This document shows positions 27,146-32,585 of a DNA stretch of 64,000 nt, one piece after another. Numbering within the stretch: position 1 is the stretch's first letter; the number at the start of each line of letters is the position of its first letter. Made by a program: the position numbers and the translations under genes. The notes under the pieces were generated by a model that saw only the letters and a list, made by a program, of their open reading frames with translations, had not been told where the DNA came from and did not search any database. The stretch comes from Pseudonocardiaceae bacterium. Its GTDB lineage: Bacteria > Actinomycetota > Actinomycetes > Mycobacteriales > Pseudonocardiaceae. The stretch is from the NCBI GenBank assembly GCA_009379815.1, contig WHSY01000011.1:1-64000 (forward strand), in the 5' to 3' direction.

Positions 27146-27945
27146 TGTGTGCGACCTGCGGTTGCTCGGACGCCGGCGGGGTGACGGTGACCGACGCCGC
27201 CGGCTCGGCGCACCAGCACGTGCATGGCCACGGTCATGACCACGGGCACGACCACGCTGCCCACGAGCACGCTGACGACGGGCACGACAGCCGCACCGTG
27301 ACGCTCGAACAGGCGGTGCTCGCCCGCAACGACGAGCTCGCCGAGCGCAACCGTCGCTGGTTCGCCGACAACGGGGTACTCGCGCTGAACCTGATGAGCT
27401 CACCCGGTGCGGGCAAGACCACCCTGCTGGAACGCACCGTCGCCGAGCTGGGCATCGAGCTGGGCATCGGCGTGATCGAGGGCGATCAGGAGACGCTGCT
27501 CGACGGTGAGCGCATCCGGGCCACCGGCGCGCCGGTGGTGCAGATCAACACCGGTGCCGGCTGCCACCTGGATGCCAGCATGCTGGCCGACGGGCTGCGC
27601 ACACTCGATCCCGCGACAGGGTCGATGGTCCTCGTCGAGAACGTCGGGAACCTGGTGTGCCCGGCGCTGTTCGACCTGGGTGAGGACTCCAAGGTGGTGA
27701 TCGCGTCGGTCACCGAGGGTGCGGAGAAGCCGTTGAAGTACCCCCACATGTTCCGGGTCGCCCAGCTGGTGCTGCTGAACAAGATCGACCTGCTGCCCCA
27801 CCTCGACTTCGACGTCGAGCGCTTCCTCGACGGCGCCCGGCGCGCCAATCCCCGGATCGAGGTGCTGGAGGTGTCGGCGACCCGCGGCGACGGCATCGAC
27901 CGCTGGTATGAGTGGCTGCGCGGTCGTCACGCGCAGCTTCAGTAG
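27145..27945 (+). CDS. hypB: Hydrogenase nickel-incorporation GTPase HypB
   Basis: The 266-aa GTPase stores and transfers nickel. It starts MCATCGCSD with the CxxCGC high-affinity nickel motif, followed by a His-rich stretch (HGHGHDHGHDH, residues 28-48) for nickel storage. The G domain has the P-loop SSPGAGKTT (about 92), the metal-switch Cys-His in GAGCHLDA and the guanine motif NKID. Its stop overlaps that of the convergent PspC-domain gene by a few bases. Confidence 0.95.
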   Translation: MCATCGCSDAGGVTVTDAAGSAHQHVHGHGHDHGHDHAAHEHADDGHDSRTVTLEQAVLARNDELAERNRRWFADNGVLALNLMSSPGAGKTTLLERTVAELGIELGIGVIEGDQETLLDGERIRATGAPVVQINTGAGCHLDASMLADGLRTLDPATGSMVLVENVGNLVCPALFDLGEDSKVVIASVTEGAEKPLKYPHMFRVAQLVLLNKIDLLPHLDFDVERFLDGARRANPRIEVLEVSATRGDGIDRWYEWLRGRHAQLQ

Positions 27946-28127
27946 CCCGCCTTGGGGATGATGATCCATGCCCCGATGTAGATCAGGAACTGCGGACCCG
28001 GCAACACGCAGGACACCACGAACAGCAGCCGCACCATGTTCGGGCTCAGGCCGAACCGGTGAGCCAGGGCCGCACACACCCCGGCGATGACCTTGCCCTC
28101 CTGGGGCCGGACCAGTGTGGCACTCAT
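27939..28127 (-). CDS. PspC-domain small membrane protein
   Basis: The 62-aa protein is nearly all PspC domain: VIAGVCAALAHRFGLSPN then one hydrophobic helix (LLFVVSCVLPGPQFLIYIGAWIII). The N-terminus MSATLVRPQEGK is cytosolic. GAGGAG precedes ATG 28127. PspC proteins work in envelope-stress signalling; small single-domain forms are common and uncharacterised. The open frame continues upstream into an unrelated hydrolase remnant, which I treat separately. Confidence 0.8.
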   Translation of the reverse strand: MSATLVRPQEGKVIAGVCAALAHRFGLSPNMVRLLFVVSCVLPGPQFLIYIGAWIIIPKAGY

Positions 28128-28128
28128 C

Positions 28129-28325
28129 GCTCTCCTCTTCGTGACTGTTGTCATCATGCTGCCTCGGCCGGCCGAGCGGCGCATCCGGGTGCCGACCCTG
28201 ACGTTCCTCGGGGTCGACCGCGTGACCGCACCACCTGAGGTGCCGGCCGGTCCCTGCAGGGTCGCACCGCCCTGCCGGGTGAAGTCTGCCAGGTCGAACG
28301 TCTCGAAATCGGCCGGTACAGGCAT
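28129..28325 (-). pseudogene. N-terminal remnant resembling a homoserine O-acetyltransferase-like hydrolase
   Basis: From ATG 28325, with AGGAG upstream, the frame reads MPVPADFETFDLADFTRQGG and ATLQG. This matches the start of MetX-like alpha/beta hydrolases (xDLGDFxLQSGxTLPxARLAYKTYG). Homology stops after about 25 codons, before any catalytic residue, and the frame then runs through basic sequence into the PspC gene. The family call is tentative. Confidence 0.4.
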
Positions 28326-28356
28326 CGTCGTCGCTCTCCTGGCTGCGGGTCCCGGC

Positions 28357-29142
28357 TCAGCGGGCGTTGTGGAAGATGACGCCGAGGACGTGGCGGTCGC
28401 CGGAATGCACGGCGCTGACGCCGTGGCGCAGCTGCACCCGATGGTAGCCGCGAGCACCGAGGCGGGGCCGGTTGCGCACCGGGAAGATCACGGCCTGGCC
28501 GAGTCCGGGTCGGGCGACCATGGGTCGGGACTGCTGGCGGGGCCGCTGCTCGACGAGCACGCTCTCCCCGCCGGTGAAGTCCTCGTCGGGGGTGTTGAGC
28601 ATGAACAGCACCTGCAGCGGGAACGTCAGCTCGCCGTAGACGTCCTGGTGCAGGCAGTTGTAGCCGCCCGGGCCGTAGCGCAGCACCAGCGGCGTGGGCC
28701 GGTGCTGGCCGGCCTCGGCGCACCGCGCGACGAGCTCGCCGTGTTCGGTGGGAAAGGTGGGCTCGCCGAGCAACCCCGCCCAGCGGTTCGCGACCGCGGC
28801 CAGCGGCGGGTAGAGGCTGGTCCGCAGCGCCTGGACGAGCGGTGGCAGCGGGTCGGCGAAGTAGCGGTAGCTGCCCTCACCGAAGGAGTACCGCGCCATC
28901 ATGATCGTGCTGCGGAACGCGGCGTCGTCGTCGAACACGTCGATCAGCTGCTGGCACTGCTCGGGCGAGAGCAGCGGCGGGGTCACAGCGAACCCGGCCC
29001 CGTCGAGCTGGGCGGCCAGCTGCGACCAGTCCAGGCCTGCCAGCGCCGGCAGCTGCGGCGGAACCGGTCCCGCGGCGGGCCCGGAGTCCGCCGCTGCGTC
29101 GGCGAAGTCCAGATCCAGGGCGGCGGTGCTGGCGTCGACCAT
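28357..29142 (-). CDS. 2OG-Fe(II) dioxygenase (DUF2086-like) of the alkylation-repair cluster
   Basis: The 261-aa protein has the Fe(II) ligands His and Asp in YNCLHQDVYGE and the distal His in LRHGVSAVHSG, followed by RHVLGVIFHNAR with a 2-oxoglutarate Arg. Upstream it has FRSTIMMARYSFGEGSYRYF. The fold is the double-stranded beta helix of 2OG oxygenases and the family resembles DUF2086. It starts at ATG 29142 behind GAGGAAC. It follows ogt by 110 bp on the same strand. A role in oxidative demethylation of alkylated bases is inferred from this context. Confidence 0.78.
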   Translation of the reverse strand: MVDASTAALDLDFADAAADSGPAAGPVPPQLPALAGLDWSQLAAQLDGAGFAVTPPLLSPEQCQQLIDVFDDDAAFRSTIMMARYSFGEGSYRYFADPLPPLVQALRTSLYPPLAAVANRWAGLLGEPTFPTEHGELVARCAEAGQHRPTPLVLRYGPGGYNCLHQDVYGELTFPLQVLFMLNTPDEDFTGGESVLVEQRPRQQSRPMVARPGLGQAVIFPVRNRPRLGARGYHRVQLRHGVSAVHSGDRHVLGVIFHNAR

Positions 29143-29252
29143 CGGGTTCCTCCTCGTCGTCGGTCCTCGGCGGGTCGCGCCGCGCAACCGGGTGCCCGCC
29201 CTGCGCTCTGGTAAACCCCACGGGCACCTGGCGCAGGGCCGCTACCAGGTGC

Positions 29253-29774
29253 TCACGGCCAGGTCAGGTCGAGTTGGGGGGCGCGGTCGCAGGCTTCGAG
29301 GTCGAGCAGCGCCCGCTTGGCCGCCTGGCTGCCGGCATAGCCGACCAGCGAACCGTCAGAGCCGACGATGCGGTGGCAGGGCACGACGATCAGCACCGGG
29401 TTGCGGGCGAGGGCCCAGCCGACCTTGCGGAGCCTGCGGGCATCGGCGTCCGGCAGCGCGAGCATCGCGGCCAGCCCGGCGTAGGTGGCGGTCGCGCCGT
29501 AGCCGATGGCCTCCAGCGCGGCCAGGACACGCCGGTCGAAGGCGCTGCAGTCGGCAAGGTCGACCGGCACGGTGACGCTGCGCAGCTCCCCGCCGAGGTA
29601 GGCGTCGAGCTCGCGGCGCGCCCGGTCCAGCAACGCCCTGGCGGCCGGGGAAGCCCCGCCCGCGCCGACGTCGGTTGCGGTAGGCGCGACGGCGCACCGG
29701 GTCAGCCCGGTGTCGGAGGCGGCCAGGGTGAGCGTTCCGAGCGGGGTGTCGTGGGTGGCGGTCATGGCGGTCAT
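29253..29774 (-). CDS. ogt: Methylated-DNA-protein cysteine methyltransferase (Ogt type)
   Basis: The 173-aa protein repairs O6-alkylguanine by moving the alkyl group to its own Cys in VPCHRIVGSDG (about residue 132). The winged-helix and Asn hinge region RRLRKVGWALARNP precedes it. ATG 29774 has GGAGTGAG upstream and yields MTAMTATHDTPLGTL. It begins just after the alkB stop, so the two are co-transcribed. It is the second methyltransferase of the cluster. Confidence 0.92.
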   Translation of the reverse strand: MTAMTATHDTPLGTLTLAASDTGLTRCAVAPTATDVGAGGASPAARALLDRARRELDAYLGGELRSVTVPVDLADCSAFDRRVLAALEAIGYGATATYAGLAAMLALPDADARRLRKVGWALARNPVLIVVPCHRIVGSDGSLVGYAGSQAAKRALLDLEACDRAPQLDLTWP

Positions 29775-29779
29775 GGCGC

Positions 29780-30211
29780 TCACTCCAGTCCGGAGACGCG
29801 CAGGGCGATGTTGAGCCGGCCGTGGTCCAGGTCGATGTCCGGAACCTCGAACTCGGGCAGCAGTGCAGGCACTCCGTGATAGGCCAACCGGTTCTCCCGG
29901 CCGAAAACGAGCAGGTCGCCGGACAGCAGCGGGATGTCGGTCCACGGCTTGCCTCGATGCTCGGCGTGGCCGATCCGGAACAGGCACGCCGCGCCCAGGC
30001 TCAGCGACACCACGGGGTCGAGGGTTCGCTCGTCGCGATCCTGGTGCATTCCCAGTCGGGCGTCGGCGTCGTAGAAGTTCACCAGCGCGACGTCGGGCCG
30101 GTAGCCGGCCTCGGGCTCCAGGTAGGCCTCGGCCACGGCGTTGCGGCCCAGCTCGGCGAGCCAGCCGGGTAACGGGATCACGCCGGCGGCGGGAGCGGGG
30201 TACCAGTTCGA
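29780..30211 (-). pseudogene. alkB: AlkB-type DNA dioxygenase, 5'-truncated
   Basis: The frame contains the AlkB catalytic core: VALVNFYDADARLGMHQDRDE (HxD iron ligands), RENRLAYHGV (distal His) and LNIALRVSG (2OG Arg). Full AlkB proteins are about 200-215 aa with a nucleotide-recognition lid. Here an in-frame TGA at 30212-30214 leaves at most 143 codons. The best start, GTG 30181, has no ribosome-binding site. The first 70-80 residues are gone; only 35 nt separate the TGA from the upstream methyltransferase stop, which suggests a deletion. A shortened active protein is not excluded. Confidence 0.65.
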
Positions 30212-30249
30212 TCACACGGCCCTCCCGGGGCCCGGGGGTTGTCCGGGGC

Positions 30250-31041
30250 TCACGCCGGCTCTCCCTCGACCGCGGGGCGGCAGTGCCGGCACGGCCGGTA
30301 CCCGGCTCCGAGCGCGCCGGTCAGGGTGCGGAAGCCGTGCCGGTGGGCCGGAGTGATCCGCCGGGCGTTGCGGCAGGTCGGAAAGCACACCACCCCGGTG
30401 GTGTCGCTGCCCAGGTAGTGCACACCCGCTTTGGCCAGGGTGTCGATCTCGTCGAGGTCGGCGTGCTCGCCACGCAGCAACGCCGCCTTGCTCGACGGGC
30501 CGAAGAGGTACTGGCCGAGCGTCCCGTCGGTGCGGACCACCCGGTGGCACGGGATCAGCAGCGGCACCGGGTTGCCGGCCAGCACCGACCCGACCGCGCG
30601 GAAGGCGTTGGGTCGGCCGGCCTCGCGAGCCACCCAGGCATACGGGCGGGTCTCCCCGGCCGGGATGCGTCGCGTCGCCGACAGCACGTCACGCTCAAAG
30701 TCCGACAGCCCGCGCAGGTCCAGCGCCGGCCCGGCGGATTTCGTGCCTCGCAGGGCGGGCAGCAGCCCGCGGGGGGCGCGGGTCGCCGGGCGCAGCGGCC
30801 GCTGGTACCGGGTGCGGTAGGCCTCGCGGAACTCCTCGCCGTCGCCGGGCAACGACTCGGCGGTGCGCAGGAAGCTCACCCCGTCGCGGGTGAACGCCAC
30901 GTACACCTCACCGAGCGGGCCAGGGGCGCGCATCCAGCTGTCGAACACCGCGTCGGACAGGCTCGCGGGCGCGGCCACCCTCAGCCGGCCGAGCGCACCC
31001 ACGACCGGGTCGAGGGTCGGGTCCAGTCCGTTGCTCATCAT
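30250..31041 (-). CDS. Ogt-type methyltransferase with C-terminal Ada zinc domain
   Basis: The 263-aa protein has a guanine-methyltransferase domain with active Cys in LIPCHRVVRTDG (about residue 163). It ends in an Ada metal-binding domain: GVVCFPTCRNARR then YRPCRHCRPA, a four-Cys zinc site of the type that takes methyl groups from phosphotriesters. In E. coli Ada this zinc domain is N-terminal and followed by an AraC HTH; here the order is reversed and no AraC HTH is visible. ATG 31041 lies behind GAGGAG and overlaps the sigma-factor stop (ATGA). Confidence 0.85.
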   Translation of the reverse strand: MMSNGLDPTLDPVVGALGRLRVAAPASLSDAVFDSWMRAPGPLGEVYVAFTRDGVSFLRTAESLPGDGEEFREAYRTRYQRPLRPATRAPRGLLPALRGTKSAGPALDLRGLSDFERDVLSATRRIPAGETRPYAWVAREAGRPNAFRAVGSVLAGNPVPLLIPCHRVVRTDGTLGQYLFGPSSKAALLRGEHADLDEIDTLAKAGVHYLGSDTTGVVCFPTCRNARRITPAHRHGFRTLTGALGAGYRPCRHCRPAVEGEPA

Positions 31042-31658
31042 CGGGAACTCCTCGGTGCCGTGAGCGTGGCCCGATCGTTTCGGGGATCCAGCAGCGCTCG
31101 CAATCGATGCAACCCACGAAAGACGTGGGACTTGGCGGTGCCTTCGGGACACCCGAGGACCTCGGCGACCTCGGCGATCGGCAGGTCGGCCACATGGCGT
31201 AGCACCACCGCCGCCCGCTGGGCGTGGGGCAGCCGAGCCAGCTGCGCACCCAGCTCGCGCCCCAACTCGTCGGCCTCGACCCGGTCCTCCACGCTGGCCC
31301 CGACCGCTGGTCGGTCATACTCCTGGGCCTCTGCCGACGCGGGTGCGGGGCGACGGTTCGCATCGCGGACCGCATTGCGGCCGGTGTTGACGACGATGGC
31401 CAGCAGCCACGCCCGGGGCACCAACGCCTCGATCCGAGCGGTGTCGTAGCCACGCAGCGCTCGGTAGGCACGCAGCAACGACTCGGCCGCGAGATCCTCG
31501 GCCTCGGCCGGGCGCCCCGTGATCCGCAGCGCCACCGAGTACACGACACCCTGATAGGCGCGCACCAGCTTGGCGAACCCGTTGTCGAGGTCTGCTACCA
31601 GGCTGGCCCGCACGACCTCGGCCGCCGGATCCACCGTCATCGCCGGCTCGTCCACCAT
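31038..31658 (-). CDS. ECF-type RNA polymerase sigma factor
   Basis: The 206-aa protein has sigma region 2 (VYSVALRITGRPAEAEDLAAESLLRAYRAL over two helices), an acidic linker, and region 4 with LPHAQRAAVVLRHVADLPI, then EVAEVLGCPEGTAKSHVFRGL as the HTH. It lies at the head of a minus-strand set with Ogt-Ada, AlkB, Ogt and a 2OG oxygenase and overlaps the next gene by 4 nt, so it likely directs or amplifies an alkylation response. No anti-sigma factor is next to it. ATG 31658 is the chosen start; ATG 31640 is an alternative. Confidence 0.85.
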   Translation of the reverse strand: MVDEPAMTVDPAAEVVRASLVADLDNGFAKLVRAYQGVVYSVALRITGRPAEAEDLAAESLLRAYRALRGYDTARIEALVPRAWLLAIVVNTGRNAVRDANRRPAPASAEAQEYDRPAVGASVEDRVEADELGRELGAQLARLPHAQRAAVVLRHVADLPIAEVAEVLGCPEGTAKSHVFRGLHRLRALLDPRNDRATLTAPRSSR

Positions 31659-31840
31659 GCCCCTATCAACACCACCGCCACCCCATCGGTTGCATGCCCC
31701 GCGAGTCGTCCCGCTAGCCCGAGCACTCAGGGCACAGACTTTGGACGCCCTCGACACCGAGATCCGGCGAGGCCACCGCAACAGGAGGACGACAGGACCG
31801 CAACCACCCCGCTGGCGCACGTTCTACGCGCCGAGCACGG

Positions 31841-31956
31841 ATGAGGCTGGAGTTCGTCCGCACCTTCGACGCCGGGCCTCCACGACGTGGTCCGCGCTCA
31901 CCGAGTCCGACCGCCTGGGCCGATGGTTCGGCACCTGGAGCGGACTGCCCAGCTGA
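31841..31956 (+). pseudogene. SRPBCC/AHSA1-like fragment with frameshift
   Basis: ATG 31841 opens MRLEFVRTFDA and, after a shift of frame near 31875, continues TTWSALTESDRLGRWFGTWSG. This is the first 35 residues of an Aha1/SRPBCC-domain protein. A stop follows at 31956 and the rest is missing. It lies in the 376-bp gap between the sigma factor and the toxin-antitoxin pair; I see no other gene there. Confidence 0.5.
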
Positions 31957-31997
31957 ATCTCGCCCGTCCCGCAGGGCGATCGTCCAGCGAAACGAAA

Positions 31998-32027
31998 TTG
32001 GCTAAGTTGGCTAAGTTGGCATAGACT
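31998..32027 (+). promoter_or_regulatory. Iterated TTGGCTAAG element and likely toxin-antitoxin promoter
   Basis: TTGGCTAAG occurs twice in tandem (31998-32006, 32007-32015), followed by a partial third unit TTGGC. A TAGACT -10-like hexamer at 32022-32027 lies 18 bp from the first TTGGCT. Transcription would begin close to ATG 32035, so the message may be leaderless. The repeats are good candidates for the antitoxin autoregulatory operator. Inferred. Confidence 0.5.
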
Positions 32028-32034
32028 GGGCGGT

Positions 32035-32313
32035 ATGAGTGCAGAGCCGTCCGAATTGTCAGTCAGTCAAGCCCGGGATCACTTCTCTGACGCGGTGAGC
32101 CGGGCGAGCTTTGCTGGCCAGATCACCTACATCACCCGTGGGCGCGGTCATCGCCGCGCTGCGGCGATTGTGCCCGCCGAGTTGGTCGAGGAGTACGAGG
32201 CGATGCTCGACAGCGAGGATGGTCGCATTGCCCAGCAGCGGCTGGCGGACCTCGAAGCCGGCCGGGCGAGCGCCGTCTCGGCTGACGAGGCGACCCAGAC
32301 ACTCGGGCTGTGA
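32035..32313 (+). CDS. Phd/YefM-type antitoxin
   Basis: The 92-aa protein has the N-terminal DNA-binding fold of the Phd/YefM family (LSVSQARDHFSDAVSRA, then ITYITRGRGHRRAAAIVPAELVEEYE spread over the second half). The C-terminus is acidic and flexible, as expected for the toxin-neutralising part. Its stop overlaps the toxin start (GTGA). Tandem TTGGCTAAG repeats lie just upstream and no ribosome-binding site of note precedes ATG 32035. Confidence 0.85.
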   Translation: MSAEPSELSVSQARDHFSDAVSRASFAGQITYITRGRGHRRAAAIVPAELVEEYEAMLDSEDGRIAQQRLADLEAGRASAVSADEATQTLGL

Positions 32314-32585
32314 GTGCTGCCTACTCATACACCGTTCAGTACGACGCGAGAGCCGTCAAGGAGTTGGGCAAGCTCGACAAGCCCGTGGCCCGGCGCATCG
32401 TCACCGCCGTTGAGGCGTTGCGGGCCGATCCGCGTCCGGCCGGTTGCCGGGCACTGACCGGTTTCCCCGGCCTGTGGCGAATCCGGGTCGGCGACTACCG
32501 GGTCGTCTACACGATCAAGGACGCAGAACTTGTGGTGCTCGTGCTGCGCATTGCCCATCGCAGCGCCGTCTATCGACGCCTGTGA
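32310..32585 (+). CDS. RelE/ParE-superfamily toxin
   Basis: The 91-aa protein starts with GTG at 32310 within the antitoxin stop. It has the RelE pattern: YTVQYDARAVKELGKLDKPV, ADPRPAGCRALTGFPGLWRI, then RVGDYRVVYTIKDAEL and RIAHRSAVYRRL. The basic residues in the last segments (R, H, R, Y) match the mRNA-cleaving site of RelE toxins. The overlap with the antitoxin ensures antitoxin is made first. Confidence 0.88.
   Translation: MSAAYSYTVQYDARAVKELGKLDKPVARRIVTAVEALRADPRPAGCRALTGFPGLWRIRVGDYRVVYTIKDAELVVLVLRIAHRSAVYRRL

Follow-up and report, generated by a model that had tools for sequence, protein, structure and literature searches.

The adaptive response of Escherichia coli to DNA alkylation comprises ada-alkB, alkA and aidB, and responses of this type are known chiefly via Ada in its role as a methylated activator. 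In operons headed by extracytoplasmic function (ECF) sigma factors the gene just downstream of the sigma factor occupies the usual place of the anti-sigma factor. Here we describe a locus in which this place is taken by an alkyltransferase, namely a fusion of an Ogt domain with an Ada zinc domain (Ogt-Ada), and in which the chemistry of the adaptive response has apparently been rewired to a sigma factor. The locus lies in the Pseudonocardiaceae bacterium GCA_009379815.1, whose genome is a draft of 733 contigs, within a window of 64,000 nt of contig WHSY01000011.1, the window being the whole stretch of DNA that was analyzed and the frame of its coordinates given below.

According to PMC4437013, methylation of E. 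coli Ada at Cys38 is followed by activation together with RNA polymerase, for which the sigma factor is essential; the coupling of Ada chemistry to sigma-dependent initiation thus has a precedent. The SigH network of Corynebacterium glutamicum includes genes possibly for the repair of alkylated DNA, as stated in part of PMC3489674. No description of a pairing between an ECF sigma factor and an alkyltransferase was found in the literature, of which the main ECF classification lay outside the coverage, so that the novelty of the pairing is provisional; the covered part of the ECF review PMC8103513 mentions neither alkylation nor a methyltransferase, and that of PMC4520597 contains nothing relevant.

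The comparative analysis presented here favors, with a probability of about 0.58, an ECF-sigma-driven response to alkylation stress in which the Ogt or Ogt-Ada partner, hereafter Ogt(-Ada), acts both as suicide alkyl acceptor and as regulator of the sigma factor. As judged from genomic sequence, the existence of an ECF-sigma-driven alkylation regulon is well supported. Its setting is a phylum with many soil-dwelling and antibiotic-producing members, and the predicted promoter and regulon are directly testable.

The sigma-Ogt(-Ada) pair and its conservation

The locus consists of a run of five genes, all on the minus strand at 28357-31658, preceded by a promoter-like element:

31668..31694, minus strand: promoter-like element TGCAAC-N15-GGTGTT, 9 nt before the ATG of the sigma factor
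31038..31658, minus strand: ECF sigma factor, 206 aa (Pfam Sigma70_r2 and Sigma70_r4_2)
30249..31041, minus strand: Ogt-Ada fusion, 263 aa (Pfam DNA_binding_1 and Ada_Zn_binding)
29780..30215, minus strand: alkB with an internal deletion and a frame change, its C-terminal part open at 30181-29780 (2OG-FeII_Oxy_2, PF13532, part only)
29253..29774, minus strand: free-standing ogt, 173 aa, without N-terminal extension (Pfam DNA_binding_1 and Methyltransf_1N)
28357..29142, minus strand: 2-oxoglutarate- and Fe(II)-dependent oxygenase, 261 aa (Pfam PF09859, Oxygenase-NA, 3.5e-75)

As the original prediction had described them, these genes are co-directional with overlaps or short gaps. The sigma factor contains only region 2 and region 4, which is the architecture of ECF sigma factors (Pfam), and its stop codon overlaps the start of Ogt-Ada in a 4-nt ATGA. 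The Ogt-Ada stop is followed after 33 nt by the GTG of the vestigial alkB (30215), alkB after 5 nt by ogt, and ogt after 110 nt by the oxygenase. A consensus scan of window positions 27900-32000 found neither a sigma-70 promoter nor an intrinsic terminator.

The Ogt-Ada protein, correctly named as a fusion from the outset but without consideration of a role as sensor or regulator, comprises an N-terminal extension, an Ogt domain with a PCHR motif and, at the C-terminus, an Ada zinc domain containing four cysteines, i.e. the reverse of the domain order of E. coli Ada. The cysteines of this zinc domain (PF02805, above the cut-off) align to C38, C42, C69 and C72 of N-Ada in a match to the PDB sequence. 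The AraC-type helix-turn-helix (HTH) half of N-Ada20 is absent, there being no Pfam HTH match and the protein ending just past the zinc domain; the alignment is gapped at the DNA-reading arginine positions of N-Ada, and hence no claim is based on these as a discriminator. Foldseek searches with an AlphaFold model of Ogt-Ada (predicted local distance difference test, pLDDT, 80.6) recovered 1sfe (9.3e-11), the M. tuberculosis OGT and, more weakly, the methylated N-Ada structure 1u8b (2.8e-3). The N-terminal extension of sigma-coupled Ogts spans 32-52 residues in the 14 loci measured by script, as against 5-9 residues in five free Ogts; in 11 sigma-coupled loci, that of the window included, the script failed and the extension was seen by eye in the alignment. 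In two loci (L089 and L090) the sigma-coupled Ogt domains keep the PCHR motif, lack the RAVG "arginine finger" stretch and are followed downstream by a second ogt match; these sigma-coupled Ogts may be sensors only. A stand-alone mini-Ada zinc domain of 70 aa (L011:5995-6207), 73% identical to that of the fusion, occurs without an adjoining Ogt or sigma factor, and an MFS gene near it resembles, by eye, one found behind the promoter-like element in L171.

The sigma-Ogt(-Ada) pair recurs across Actinomycetota, and the search for the same gene set elsewhere, which had been suggested as a check, found the linkage conserved well beyond the window genome. A scan of genome contigs returned 12 loci. 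Matches were recovered in 188 of 200 genomes of an order sample at the loose limit of 1e-10 (mostly general Ogt proteins), in nine of 394 genomes of a class sample at 1e-26 (the window genome and G014 among them) and in 31 of 396 genomes of a phylum sample. The sigma factor directly precedes Ogt in 25 of the 27 distinct loci of the first set, which includes the window and from which L015 was removed as a duplicate from the same genome as L004; the two exceptions, L011 with the lone zinc domain and L012 with a partial match, both lack the sigma factor. The sigma homologues of this set that stand ahead of Ogt(-Ada) are 44-66% identical, and the 25 pairs display the 4-nt overlap in 16 cases, PCHR in all 25 and the four zinc cysteines in 15. 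In the phylum sample, where all but one of the 30 non-window matches were fetched, the sigma factor adjoins Ogt in 27 of the 29 loci, and these 27 are those with the zinc domain. The distances of sigma and Ogt correlate in a mirror-tree comparison (r=0.70, n=24, reached in 0 of 2000 permutations; L019, with its mis-called start, left out), which shows shared descent and not contact. The pair is also present in plasmid records, one from Rubrobacter radiotolerans and three from Streptomyces; on the latter three plasmids (L216, L217, L218) SARP-type regulators and metK/metF or metF/metH stand beside sigma-Ogt-Ada.

A second group of 22 loci from the order sample (L021-L042) was set apart after the fact, its sigma factor being only ~28-33% identical. 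In 15 of the 22 this other ECF sigma factor stands beside an extended Ogt, and a 4-nt ATGA overlap is seen in 13 of these 15, a count that leaves out the seven loci without a sigma match. An element of the approximate form YCTCAC-N17-CGTCT is present in 20 of the 22, having been read off the same loci and thus not constituting an independent test. No zinc domain was seen in this group, in which a further ogt and the oxygenase sometimes occur in the arrangement ogt-sigma-ogt-oxygenase. Given this distant sigma factor and different element, the pairing of a sigma factor with an alkyltransferase may have arisen, or diverged, more than once.

The promoter-like element and the predicted regulon

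The window genome holds a single exact TGCAAC-N15-GGTGTT, located at the sigma operon, and ten matches with one mismatch, as against four in all for the reversed pattern. When the DNA upstream of the sigma factor was compared in 18 loci (one of them a duplicate), this element or a near variant was present in all except L001 and L002, both of which have the oxygenase gene directly upstream of sigma; in L002 the element heads the oxygenase-sigma-Ogt-Ada run, and in L001 the promoter is off the contig end. As YGCAAC-N14/15-GGKGTT it occurs in 24 of 24 first-set loci with enough upstream DNA, and with at most one mismatch in all eight held-out loci (L084-L091), which were fetched after the element had been defined. 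In the phylum set 22 of the 27 loci match it when up to two mismatches are allowed, TGAAAC being frequent, and this level is reached by 28 of 938 of all 200-nt windows of the phylum loci on both strands, true sites included. The Streptomyces plasmids (L216-L218) have G or A at the first position of the element, and Rubrobacter (L215) deviates from it at two positions. Between the end of the element and the start codon lie 9 nt in 12 of the 21 loci measured and 7-12 nt in 19 of them, and from this spacing leaderless transcripts are predicted. The sigma factor itself probably reads the element. An Ada box (AAT-N4-8-GCAA) precedes none of 27 element sites.

Across 24 module-bearing genomes YGCAAC-N15-GGKGTT gave 106 matches, a total that includes sigma sites and some repeats, as against 12 for the reversed pattern; across 24 genomes of the same family from the order sample without the module the numbers were 36 and 20. 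Of the 106, 74 were fetched; of those left out, 23 head sigma operons, six belong to a palindromic repeat in G044 and three fall inside genes. For the control genomes, 30 loci containing 32 sites were fetched out of the 36 matches. The element precedes the oxygenase in five module genomes (G192, G132, G202, G205, G206), ogt in four (G204, G203, G202, G206), short-chain dehydrogenase/reductase (SDR) genes in four (G205, G206, G321, G201), and a SnoaL-like protein and an unnamed small protein in three each. These counts include related genomes (Actinomycetospora in the case of G202, G203 and G204, Pseudonocardia in that of G205 and G206), and, as the SDR, SnoaL, small-protein and transporter reference sequences were taken from the matches themselves, one match of each is a self-match. 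Start codons lie 8-9 nt past the element in eight of these 19 recurring downstream genes. In the control genomes none of the 32 sites precedes an oxygenase, ogt, SDR, SnoaL-like or small-protein gene, a zero that is weaker for the oxygenase than for ogt. The oxygenase and ogt targets are separated from sigma by 50 kb or more, or are on a different contig, with the exception of G202, where both are within ~10 kb of the sigma locus behind separate elements; four of the five oxygenase and three of the four ogt targets are therefore truly distant. Counting L001, whose promoter is off the contig, 12 of the 17 oxygenase genes in module genomes either belong to the sigma operon or follow the element.

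The small protein family behind the element in L126, L128 and L142 has a sequence of about ARYAxxAYPGPxGEL and is without a Pfam match in L128 and L142. In G162 (L059) the element also precedes a gene of SARP-like appearance.

Proposed mechanism and its alternatives

In the proposed mechanism, Ogt(-Ada) of the unstressed cell would hold the sigma factor inactive or fail to assist it. Once an alkyl group has been taken from O6-alkylguanine by the Ogt cysteine, or from a methylphosphotriester by the cysteine of the Ada zinc domain, the sigma factor would become active, read TGCAAC-N15-GGTGTT and raise its own operon, and with it the alkyl acceptor, ogt, AlkB and the oxygenase; in other species its targets would further include oxygenase, ogt and detoxification-like genes located elsewhere in the genome. 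Newly made, unmethylated Ogt(-Ada) would then close the loop. A role of Ogt(-Ada) as the sensor that controls sigma appears to be the likeliest mechanism in view of the near-constant pairing and overlap, the N-terminal extension, the zinc domain retained in the absence of a DNA-reading half, and the missing Ada box; the inducing signal and the sign of the control, be it restraint or assistance of sigma, are likewise presumptive. If true, this would be a form of sigma control whose signal is a covalent, irreversible repair event. In a more specific form, which we offer tentatively and hold to be somewhat short of an even chance, the suicide alkyltransferase would be an anti-sigma factor acting on the ECF sigma factor with which it is paired, such that one alkyl transfer both spends the enzyme and frees sigma. 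It would exist in two versions (Ogt, and Ogt with the Ada zinc domain) across Actinomycetota, with a parallel in the other ECF group with its different promoter, and lesion repair, sensing and transcription-factor release would be one chemical event.

Several observations weigh against the regulatory role of Ogt(-Ada) or against the breadth of the regulon. The sole pointer to a contact between sigma and Ogt is one natural fusion, on a plasmid of Streptomyces sp. NBC_00212 (L219:3428-4774), where a single open reading frame of 448 aa, annotated "MGMT family protein", encodes sigma region 4 together with Ogt and the zinc domain. Pfam recognises no sigma region 2 in this fusion and the element is absent; as a sign of a sigma-Ogt link the fusion is suggestive only. 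A repair gene adjoining a sigma factor could simply be the first target of that factor. The zinc domain is lacking in 10 of the 25 first-set partners and therefore cannot be the universal sensor. Five of the 27 phylum loci have no element at two mismatches or fewer, and the match in L227 is probably misplaced. Five of the 17 oxygenase genes lie outside the sigma operon and have no element in front of them, and in the window genome the regulon may be a single operon since only one exact element is present there. With the 110-nt gap upstream of it, the oxygenase may or may not be co-transcribed.

The most serious alternative, which we regard as less likely, is that the sigma factor controls the repair regulon with Ogt(-Ada) as only its first effector, and that the signal arrives via LexA, PafBC, another Ada-type gene, a redox anti-sigma factor or the level of sigma. 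In Streptomyces venezuelae LexA controls alkB, according to part of PMC9380542, and in the window genome an Ada-type gene is indeed present elsewhere, contig C13 carrying a 565-aa open reading frame with an Ada zinc domain and an ogt nearby. A mere effector would not readily explain why pairing and overlap are nearly constant, why the sigma-coupled Ogts are extended, why an Ada zinc domain has been added that lacks the HTH half normally accompanying it, or why a natural fusion exists. The gene on C13 also bears on the original prediction of an adaptive response driven by an ECF sigma factor rather than by Ada: the first half of it agrees with the sigma-headed unit, the conserved linkage and the element that elsewhere also marks separate repair genes, whereas the exclusion of Ada does not hold, because with this gene present the ECF and Ada systems would run in parallel.

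A distinctly improbable alternative is that the regulon is a general response to genotoxic electrophiles or natural products and not to methylation as such, the alkyltransferases being one arm of it. The SDR, SnoaL-like, flavin-reductase-like and transporter genes behind the element, and the adjacency of sigma-Ogt-Ada to SARP and methionine-cycle genes on Streptomyces plasmids, would fit such a role, but the most frequent targets are the oxygenase (5) and ogt (4), and the flavin-reductase-like and most transporter matches are single cases, some of them possibly due to chance. Slightly less probable still is an activator of the E. coli type, in which the methylated zinc domain of Ogt-Ada would bind an Ada box and recruit the polymerase: although this domain aligns with N-Ada with all four cysteines kept, and Ada works with RNA polymerase with sigma being essential (PMC4437013, in part), the box is missing from all 27 element sites examined, the HTH half that reads its GCAA is absent and the partners without a zinc domain nonetheless keep the element, so that classical Ada activation was ruled unsupported by the Ada-box and HTH tests.

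Associated genes and relationship to known systems

The alkB of the run had been recognised as damaged from the start, and indeed, of the 194 positions of the Pfam model only 72-194 are matched, so that the domain lacks its N-terminal part. The gene was compared with the alkB of L001, L004, L005 and L091; by eye against the apparently full-length L001 homologue, it shows a deletion of ~70 codons and a frame change after its start (MIELVPRSRR). This may be a real deletion or an assembly error, which are indistinguishable because the genome is a 733-contig draft.

The last gene of the run had been put forward as a new alkyl-lesion repair enzyme that could compensate for the damaged alkB, and neither proposal is borne out. 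The profile match of the oxygenase to PF09859 is full-length (positions 1-172 of 172; 3.5e-75) and no difference from the family was seen, so that by its sequence it appears to be an ordinary member; the Pfam entry already describes this family, presumably the former DUF2086, as acting on damaged DNA, which for the present oxygenase is a predicted activity. As to compensation, a second AlkB-family match exists on contig C718 (60.5 bits versus a cut-off of 31.2; model positions 70-194), and the oxygenase coexists with an apparently full-length alkB in L001 and L005. The oxygenase has no PDB sequence relative at E<=1, and nothing relevant was found in the literature on DUF2086, PF09859 or Oxygenase-NA; its AlphaFold model was poor (pLDDT 58.2) and was not used. 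The genome further holds four Ogt-type matches. The sigma locus is thus not the sole alkylation response of the genome, nor is the damaged alkB its sole AlkB-family gene.

Just past the oxygenase, on the minus strand from 28325 to ~28230, a gene start (25 residues, 56% identical to L005:11933-12007) breaks off, making this the second damaged gene at the locus; it resembles the N-terminus of a hydrolase or acyltransferase. Divergent from the sigma operon, on the plus strand at 32035-32585, a Phd/YefM-like gene (below the cut-off) and a ParE-family toxin gene (Pfam) likely form a toxin-antitoxin pair.

With respect to described systems, the locus resembles the actinobacterial ECF sigma/anti-sigma operons of the SigH-RshA type in that the sigma factor overlaps its downstream partner and that an element is common to sigma and its predicted targets, but differs in that the partner is an alkyltransferase and not a redox-sensing anti-sigma factor. 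With the Ada response of E. coli it shares the same kinds of enzymes, i.e. the Ogt domain, the N-Ada zinc domain and AlkB, and irreversible methyl transfer as the likely signal. It departs from that response in the position of the zinc domain C-terminal to Ogt, in having no AraC-type HTH and no Ada box at the examined sites, and in that transcription probably proceeds through a dedicated ECF sigma factor.

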